Below the pieces are notes generated by a model. That model worked only from the letters and a program-made list of their open reading frames with translations, was not told the origin of the DNA and ran no database searches. Position numbers and translations under genes: made by a program. Below, in pieces: positions 21,078-22,350 of a DNA stretch of 39,576 nucleotides. The number at the start of each line of letters is the position of its first letter. Position 1 is the first letter of the stretch. Origin of the DNA: Sphingobacteriales bacterium (GTDB lineage Bacteria; Bacteroidota; Bacteroidia; Chitinophagales; Chitinophagaceae); assembly GCA_023251235.1 (NCBI GenBank), contig JAHEZE010000019.1:1-39576 (forward strand), read 5' to 3'.

Positions 21078-21084
21078 ATATTTG
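21077..21084 (+). promoter_or_regulatory. -7 element (TATATTTG) of yajQ
   Basis: Exact match to TAnnTTTG, ending 21 nt before the yajQ ATG at 21106. It abuts the preceding terminator, so the terminator hairpin occupies the -33 to -10 region. No clear TTTG at -33. Confidence 0.5.
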
Positions 21085-21105
21085 CTCAATATAAAACAAT
21101 TCACA

Positions 21106-21597
21106 ATGCCATCATTTGATATAGTAAGCAAAGTAGACGCTCAGGCACTGGATAATGCTGTAAATATTACGACAAAAGAAATTACGAATCGTTTTGATTT
21201 CAAGGGGAGTCATGTTTTAATTGATCTTAATAAGAAAGATTTTAAAATCAATATCGAAACGGAAGATGACATGAAGATGCGACAGCTTTGTGATGTATTG
21301 ATCAGCCGTGCACATAAGCAAGGAATTGATCCTATGGCTTTTGATTTAAATAAGGAAGGTTTCCAAAGCGGTAAAACCTGGAAAAAAGAGGTTACTGTTA
21401 GAAACGGATTAATTCAAGAGGATGCAAAGAAGATTGTAAAACTCATTAAAGATTCCGGATTAAAAGTTCAGGCTTCAATAAATGATGATTTAGTAAGAGT
21501 GACTGGTAAAAAAATTGATGATCTTCAGACAATAATTCAATTAATTAAAACAGCTAGTCTTCAAATTCCTGTACAATATGTGAATATGAGAAACTAA
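21106..21597 (+). CDS. yajQ: YajQ family nucleotide-binding protein
   Basis: 163 residues starting MPSFDIVSKVDAQALDNAVN, the invariant family N-terminus, so ATG 21106 is chosen over the frame opening at 21082. Further family motifs: EITNRFDFKGS, GKTWKKEVTVRNGL and KASIND-like QASINDDLVRVTGKKIDDLQ. YajQ/UPF0234 proteins have two ferredoxin-like folds; members in Xanthomonas and Pseudomonas bind cyclic di-GMP, while the general role is unsettled. It has its own promoter and is followed by a 500-nt gene-free stretch that holds the RNA candidate. Confidence 0.93.
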   Translation: MPSFDIVSKVDAQALDNAVNITTKEITNRFDFKGSHVLIDLNKKDFKINIETEDDMKMRQLCDVLISRAHKQGIDPMAFDLNKEGFQSGKTWKKEVTVRNGLIQEDAKKIVKLIKDSGLKVQASINDDLVRVTGKKIDDLQTIIQLIKTASLQIPVQYVNMRN

Positions 21598-21718
21598 TTG
21601 GTTTGAAACATGTTTATAACTGATCTTTTTCGGTGGATAAAATGTAAAAAATAAGTGCAAAACAAGTGAGTATCAAATAGTAAAAAAATTTGGTGCAAAA
21701 TAAATAGTAATGCAATTT

Positions 21719-21946
21719 AGCGTCACAAGATTGAATGAGCCCTTTAATAAGGCATGTTTGATCTGAGGCTGGAAAAATCCTTCAACAAGATTTGAAAGCC
21801 TGCGGCTGAAGGAAACTGTCAAAGGAAGAATTTGGTCGCTGAGGTGGATGGGTCTCTAAACGGACACAAAGCCTCAAGGAAAGCGTTGGGTTAGTAAGAA
21901 ACTCAGGAGCCTCGGCAAATGGGTAGCTGAAAAATCTGGCGCTTTT
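21719..21946 (+). ncRNA. Unidentified structured RNA candidate upstream of rpmE2
   Basis: About 225 nt with nested pairing read by eye. Ends pair: AGCG and AGATT (21719-21732) with AATCT and CGCT (21933-21943), followed by CTTTTCATTTTTT. A second long helix pairs CATGTTTG and CTGAGGCT (21753-21770) with AGCCTCGG and CAAATG (21908-21921). Inside are hairpins TCCTTCA/TGAAGGA enclosing AGCC/GGCT, CGCTGAGG/CCTC..AGCG, and TGGGTT/AACTCA. Unpaired stretches are A-rich on this strand, favouring plus-strand transcription. There is no convincing ORF and it is set apart from rpmE2 by a separate promoter. It does not match tmRNA, RNase P RNA, SRP RNA or the cobalamin riboswitch by their conserved cores. 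A good TAnnTTTG promoter is not visible. Confidence 0.55.
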
Positions 21947-21981
21947 CATTTTTTATAACTTTCTCTATTTTTCGCTTACTT

Positions 21982-22012
21982 TTTGCCTGCTCCTTTTTTT
22001 CATTTAGCTTTG
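21982..22012 (+). promoter_or_regulatory. Promoter of rpmE2
   Basis: TTTG (21982-21985), 19-nt spacer, TAGCTTTG (22005-22012): a full match to the Bacteroidota consensus and the same spacing as the DUF3276 promoter. It predicts a leader of about 77 nt before rpmE2, long enough for autoregulation by L31. Confidence 0.75.
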
Positions 22013-22095
22013 CACTTCAAAATTTTTTTTAATCGTCACGGCAAAATCCCAGCCAAGCGACAGGCAGACATGCTGTTTATTAAAATCAAAGAATT

Positions 22096-22350
22096 ATGAA
22101 AAAAGGTATCCATCCTGAGTCTTATCGTTTAGTTGTCTTTAAAGATATGAGTAATGGTCATTCATTCCTAAGTCGTTCTACAGCAAACAGTAAAGAAAAA
22201 ATTAAATGGGAAGACGGTAATGAATATCCACTAGTAAAGTTGGAGATTTCAAATACTTCACATCCTTTTTTTACGGGTAAAAATATGCTGGTAGATACAG
22301 CTGGAAGAATTGACAAATTCAAGAAGAAATATGCAAAAAAAGCAGAATAG
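22096..22350 (+). CDS. rpmE2: 50S ribosomal protein L31, type B
   Basis: 84-residue ribosomal protein of the large subunit. [20 protein letters not shown] and [24 protein letters not shown] are the type B hallmarks. It has no cysteine, so it is the zinc-independent form that in many bacteria replaces the zinc-binding L31 under zinc limitation. In Bacteroidota it is usually the sole L31, which I cannot check here. It is a single-gene unit with its own promoter, a leader of about 77 nt and two terminators in a row. Confidence 0.95.

Follow-up and report, generated by a model that had tools for sequence, protein, structure and literature searches.

The locus and its RNA gene

The window, by which we mean the whole stretch of 39,576 nucleotides analysed here, contains an intergenic segment (21719-21946) flanked on its 5' side by yajQ (ORF 21082-21597) and on its 3' side by rpmE2 (ORF 22096-22350), both gene names being those assigned by an earlier, sequence-only reading of this DNA (hereafter the first-pass annotation). 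A structured RNA had been claimed there on the plus strand, and folding agrees: the minimum free energy (MFE) of the segment is -69.9 kcal/mol (z -2.48; 1 of 200 shuffles equally good), and the opposite strand reaches z -1.25 (25 of 200 shuffles equally good). No ORF of annotated size explains the RNA, as had also been stated; the only ORF of at least 50 amino acids inside the segment encodes 55 amino acids on the minus strand (21782-21949). The A-rich loops and the U-rich run after the last hairpin, both described earlier, are present in the sequence. We regard it as almost certain that an unlisted, free-standing noncoding RNA gene lies at nearly these coordinates, with the following features:

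21632..21640, plus strand, DnaA-box-like site GGTGGATAA, sharing 8 of 9 letters with TGTGGATAA (the reverse complement of TTATCCACA), family pattern
21655..21663, plus strand, box-like repeat GTGCAAAAC, first of a pair spaced 11 bp, among the conserved repeats GTGCAAAAC / GTGCATAAC of the promoter alignment
21666..21674, plus strand, box-like repeat GTGAGTATC, weak here (GTGCATAAC in the consensus of the promoter alignment)
21689..21693, plus strand, -33 element TTTGG, from the sequence and the promoter alignment
21713..21720, plus strand, -7 element CAATTTAG (family TAtCTTnn), 19 bp after TTTGG, from the alignment and the Bacteroidota consensus
21726..21952 (about), plus strand, noncoding RNA, start predicted from the -7 box and end from the U-run
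21728..21764, plus strand, hairpin H1, four-orthologue consensus fold
21766..21801, plus strand, hairpin H2, apex UCCUUCAACAAGA, compensatory changes in the outer stem, four-orthologue consensus fold
21802..21839, plus strand, hairpin H3, apex ACUGUCAAAGG, four-orthologue consensus fold
21841..21875, plus strand, hairpin H4, four-orthologue consensus fold
21878..21947, plus strand, 3' hairpin H5 (AAAGCGUUGGGUUAGUAAG ... GGCGCUUUU), also the intrinsic terminator, from the consensus fold, model R2 and a stem test
21950..21955, plus strand, U-run of the terminator, from the sequence

The AGCG at the 5' end of the segment (21719-21722) overlaps the predicted -7 box, that is, it lies upstream of the predicted RNA start. 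The MFE and centroid folds of the window copy both consist of five side-by-side hairpins. A consensus fold made from the window copy together with three other orthologues places H1 to H5 in a row, with compensatory changes, above chance, in 7 of its 65 pairs for these four sequences. The architecture proposed by the first-pass annotation, in which the paired ends of the RNA enclose a nested long helix and a branched core, is absent from all three folds, and end pairing was rejected.

Downstream of the RNA, rpmE2 appears to have its own promoter, as had been proposed: TTTTTG (21980-21985) is followed after 19 bp by TAGCTTTG (22005-22012), two boxes found by eye that resemble the promoter consensus.

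Homologues and genomic neighbourhood

Among 59 relatives searched, three copies from the same genus were recovered, with 74-77% identity, above chance. A second search gave matches in 18 of 294 family genomes, often to the upstream part only or the 3' part only; read by eye, these loci share the upstream element and the 3' hairpin. The pattern AAAGCRTYGGGTTAGTAAG occurred in 39 stretches of a species-genome collection, assigned to Chitinophagaceae, Chitinophagales, Niabella, Flavisolibacter, Hydrotalea, Parafilimonas, Pseudobacter, Ferruginibacter and Bacteroidetes / Sphingobacteriales bins. Two models were then available, R1 for the promoter (28 sequences) and R2 for the 3' hairpin (40 sequences); they match the window at 21627-21730 (E 5.2e-10) and 21880-21951 (E 3e-10), respectively, the window being one of the sequences of each model.

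At E <= 0.01, R1 matches 162 of the 294 family genomes, the other 132 being without a match at a limited sensitivity; at E < 1e-6 there are, by our count, 97 matches in 93 genomes, and seven of these 97 matches were left out of the extracted loci. Across the phylum, R1 has matches at E <= 1e-4 in 6 of 296 genomes. Five of these genomes belong to the family, one of them with a partial match; the sixth, from outside the family, matches in what looks by eye like coding sequence. R2 matches 30 of 248 genomes of the order at E <= 0.01, of which 23 belong to the family; the seven outside (E 2.7e-5 to 0.0057), spanning 34-37 nt where coordinates were given, were taken as chance matches. Judged from these searches, the RNA is essentially confined to the Chitinophagaceae, which accords with the earlier idea of an RNA specific to a Bacteroidota lineage. 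Three genomes (G264, G150 and G168) carry two copies each, all six with an RNA body. Among the matches listed from searches of the open-licence literature, none names the RNA.

From these loci 109 distinct homologous promoter-plus-RNA sequences were extracted. As far as sequence comparison goes, the family-wide shared traits are a promoter with DnaA-box-like sites, a chain of hairpins and a terminator hairpin. Within the flanks covered (at most 2.5 kb and 3 kb, less at some loci), yajQ lies upstream on the same strand at 51 of the 109 loci, rpmE2 is near 46, dnaE and trxA accompany four, and 51 have none of these four genes. Since those 51 loci lack yajQ, rpmE2, dnaE and trxA nearby, we reject the idea of an rpmE2 leader and consider action in trans probable.

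A promoter with tandem DnaA-box-like sites

Bacteroidota promoters follow the consensus -33 TTTG / -7 TAnnTTTG. In the 28-sequence promoter alignment, GTGNATAAC..GTGCAAAAC..GTGCATAACAA..AAAATTTGGAA is followed after about 20 bp by TATCTT, so that the family promoter can be written as TTTGG / TATCTT, preceded by tandem DnaA-box-like sites with gaps of 2-3 bp. Upstream of 108 such promoters (17,496 bp), TTATNCACA occurs 60 times, 56 of them in one orientation. This is a density of 3.43 per kb, where 512 kb of flanks have 0.029 per kb and same-base shuffles give 1.3 occurrences in all; the enrichment is partly built in, as the promoters were collected with a model that contains box columns. TTATCCACA occurs 15 times (0.86 per kb against 0.002 in the flanks). 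The boxes are also phased: GTGNAWAA starts peak at -84 (55), -61 (26) and -72 (20) from the estimated RNA start, and successive GTGNANAWC repeats are spaced by 12 bp (29), 11 bp (20) and then 23 bp (9). Box pairs with 2-3 bp gaps are thus found near the promoter at the family level; many boxes are imperfect, the window's own are more degenerate than the family consensus, TTATNCAC is absent from 30 of the 108 promoters, and in G266 the stretch carrying the RNA holds no box cluster (best 1).

The C-terminal domain of DnaA was found in 12 of 12 genomes, and all 12 translations contain GGRDHTTV, a motif with a role in DnaA box recognition. According to PMC11317965, E. coli DnaA favours paired boxes that are separated by 2 or 3 bp, and the DnaA-regulated double-box promoters described there resemble the present ones in their TTATNCACA-like 9-mers, single orientation and 2-3 bp gaps; they differ in that here the putative boxes precede a noncoding RNA and many are imperfect. 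Transcription of the RNA gene is quite probably under DnaA control, and, because a phased tandem array of DnaA-box-like sites precedes the promoter, it probably tracks the state of DnaA. DnaA-type boxes at promoter distance can be read from the sequences; binding of DnaA to them is what we infer. In the dnaA genes of 12 family genomes (L231-L242), a TTATNCACA box lies in the approximately 350 bp upstream of 1 of 12.

A conserved 3' hairpin and a body of variable hairpin number

Both ends of the gene can be recognised across the family. The terminator hairpin AAAGCAUCGGGUUAGUAAG...GGUGCUUU is present in 79 of the 109 sequences by an automatic definition; many of the other 30 have a diverged 3' hairpin, and one is ended by the end of its contig. 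Among 38 distinct sequences out of 40, the H5 stem is 96.4% paired against 95.2 in shuffles (0 of 500), with two-sided changes in 6 cells (0.9 in shuffles), and slid stems are 36.8-52.2% paired; measures that count pairs or pair types are weaker (17 of 500 and 103 of 500).

Upstream of this hairpin, the RNA consists of one to about 19 consecutive similar hairpins, commonly of about 36 nt and with A-rich apical loops. The 73 of 109 RNAs recognised by a second definition of the 3' hairpin measure 99-758 nt and have 1-19 body hairpins, with a single one in 24. Their body lengths fall into classes, with 23 at 35-60 nt, none at 60-70, 26 at 70-100, none at 100-112, 1 at 112-130, none at 130-140, 6 at 140-160 and 17 at 200 nt or more, and these separate classes speak for modularity. 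The correlation of length with hairpin number was rejected as proof of modularity (0.982 against 0.978 in shuffles), and because shuffles match it, we rely on the length classes and on the covariation of the arms.

Covariation was measured independently of any fold, with the loop word [CT][CGT]T[CAT]AAAA as the sole anchor; it has 117 matches, 78 after removal of near-duplicates, some of which fall outside the RNA and dilute the signal. The score is 148 for the three pairs next to the loop (111.9, sd 5.9, when arms are dealt randomly) and 254 for the outer stem (192.8, sd 8.3), each with 0 of 1000 and uncorrected for relatedness. Homologues of the first-pass RNA with covarying hairpin arms therefore exist. 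With the terminator left out, bodies have an MFE of -0.240 per nt and their composition shuffles one of -0.120, the real body being the lower in 72 of 73 RNAs. With the terminator, which inflates z, the 87 RNAs under 320 nt (from 107 with an end, some long RNAs being cut short) have a mean z of -5.55, with 85 of 87 below -2; the opposite strand of the same 87 gives -2.67, with 54 below -2.

Note also that two attempts at a finer description were given up. A strict purine-internal-loop module occurs 53 times in 107 RNAs against 12.0 (sd 2.9) in shuffles and 6 in flanks, and was rejected as the unit, being too rare and partly spurious. When 27 of the 30 two-hairpin RNAs were folded together, the consensus retained only H5, because sequence alignment fails to register the body hairpins. 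At the long end of the range, L005/L028, L017, L020, L026, L034 and L173 have bodies of 432-464 nt; several lie between dnaE and trxA, and a second hairpin of the GCATCGG...GATGC type follows the first. The extreme forms L085, L189 and L190 reach an RNA of about 640-760 nt, bounded by a promoter and a 3' hairpin like those of the other copies, and L085 contains the repeats GCTGTCAAAGGC and CTGGCAACGG.

Comparison with known RNAs

At gathering scores, Rfam 15 has no match in 21719-21946 (five chance-level matches appear at E up to 10) and none in six homologous loci (L060, L023, L064, L085, L035 and L028); a 6S-Flavo control locus (L224) matches in the same search. ARAGORN finds no match at the RNA, only a tRNA-Ser elsewhere in the window. 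The first-pass annotation was thus right to see no likeness to tmRNA, RNase P RNA, SRP RNA or the listed riboswitches.

One close parallel is with CsrB and RsmZ, trans-acting, protein-titrating RNAs that have repeated similar hairpins in variable number, their own promoter and terminator, and GGA as loop motif. The present RNAs share the variable number of similar hairpins and the possession of a promoter and terminator of their own, but differ in their conserved UCNGUMAAAAGA-like loop in place of the GGA motif, their one-hairpin members and their DnaA-type promoter; moreover, CsrA was detected in none of 19 relatives, the window's genome among them (control matches in 3 of 14). RRM proteins were found in 16 of the 19 relatives, with four matches in the window's genome. 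The RNA is classed neither as CsrB nor as 6S. Two further candidate RNAs of Bacteroidetes appear in PMC2864571: the Flavo-1 motif (RF01705), which does not match the RNA, and the GUCCY-hairpin motif, reported without an Rfam number for Bacteroidetes and Proteobacteria, whose name resembles the recurrent GUCCG / GUCCU apex and which may be identical with the hairpins described here.

Proposed mechanism and alternatives

The best explanation, which we hold tentatively, is that of a free-standing, trans-acting, DnaA-responsive RNA of the Chitinophagaceae, the hairpins of which titrate or gather a protein. A Bacteroidota-type promoter with its phased tandem box array would make transcription follow the state of DnaA; the transcript would string together similar hairpins, from one to about nineteen of them and A-rich in their apical loops, with the conserved end hairpin terminating transcription; and the repeated hairpins would bind several copies of one RNA-binding protein, thereby titrating or gathering it. 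This would follow CsrB in its logic but involve a different protein, with RRM proteins as candidate partners, and the outcome would be gene expression tied to the replication cycle. That the repeated hairpins bind protein as a sponge is possible yet somewhat doubtful; the weak point of the sponge model is the one-hairpin forms, which make up about a third of the analysed RNAs and fit it poorly. The full chain, in which the RNA gene is a direct DnaA target that conveys a replication signal to gene expression through a variable hairpin array titrating an RNA-binding protein other than CsrA, is rather unlikely to hold in every link. If it does, the replication initiator would govern an RNA in a family whose members, as far as searched, showed neither CsrA nor canonical Hfq nor 6S RNA, which would offer an entry point to the coupling of replication and gene expression in Bacteroidota and to the targets of RRM proteins; the natural span of one to about nineteen hairpins would be a ready dose series for titration.

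The main rival is a base-pairing regulatory sRNA, in which the exposed A-rich loops or the conserved stretch GGGUUAGUAAG would serve as seeds for mRNAs. That the gene stands alone and has both a promoter and a terminator suits such a role, as do the recurrent exposed loop words CCGTCAAA (14 against 0.3 expected) and CTGTAAAA (16 against 0.6) enriched at the apices of 87 non-redundant bodies. We consider this reading unlikely, though a serious one: part of GGGUUAGUAAG is paired within H5 in many folds, canonical Hfq was over the cut-off in none of 19 relatives (one weaker match), although sRNAs can work without Hfq, and pairing with the dnaA mRNA, the sole target tried, was rejected at a mean z of 0.01 over 12 genomes.

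A scaffold or housekeeping RNP RNA, rather than the sponge we favour, would account for a constant 3' hairpin beside a variable body. The body can shrink to one hairpin, however, and the RNA goes undetected in 132 of the 294 family genomes at E <= 0.01 (with limited sensitivity), so that we judge this quite improbable.

6S RNA has the shape of one long rod with a central bubble. A lineage-specific 6S RNA binding RNA polymerase, also raised by the first-pass annotation, would likewise be a free-standing noncoding RNA, and it would fill a gap, as neither RF00013 nor RF01685 finds a 6S RNA in relatives (0 of 19, and 0 of 39 in a search with silent controls). 6S-Flavo, the Bacteroidetes form of 6S according to PMC2864571, occurs in 21 of 198 phylum genomes and in none of this family. 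The present RNA matches neither model, forms a variable chain of separate hairpins instead of a rod, and has another promoter, three 6S-Flavo loci appearing unrelated by eye in promoter and sequence; this reading is very unlikely. The searched relatives without a match (19 and 39) may have an undescribed 6S RNA.

It is equally hard to believe that the DNA matters over the RNA, as a DnaA-titration or origin-linked locus with incidental transcription. The box array is compatible with it, and in five closed genomes the distance between the RNA and the origin fitted by skew is 0.031 (G146), 0.078 (G262), 0.093 (G027), 0.131 (G266) and 0.151 (G168) of the genome; of these, G146, G262 and G027 are of one genus and G168 has a weak skew. 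Against it, the promoter core, the covarying hairpins and the terminator are all conserved, and an origin of replication at the RNA, suggested by the boxes, was rejected, the RNA lying away from the skew switch in all five. For G027, the RNA is located at 810.9 kb and the candidate origin at around 640.3 kb; the stretches sampled in G266, among them the one with the RNA, contain two boxes at most. A candidate oriC (L208:200-560, about 640.2-640.6 kb in G027) lies near the GC-skew switch and away from dnaA; it has TTATCCACA, TTTTCCACA and TGTGGATAT sites and a four-box cluster, as does the RNA promoter of that genome.

Finally, a cis-acting leader or attenuator of rpmE2 (L31), which the first-pass annotation had already doubted and which would have to lie always upstream of rpmE2 in its transcript, is effectively refuted for the family, rpmE2 being near 46 of the 109 loci, with a terminator in between and a separate rpmE2 promoter, and 51 loci lacking all four neighbours in flanks that are in part short. 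A hairpin-like TACGGCAAAATCCGTA, conserved in related loci, is found just before rpmE2 (22037-22060 in the window, where the copy is less complete), and could be an L31 leader; an ACGG..CCGT pair lies within 80 bp upstream of 32 of 46 rpmE2-like starts.
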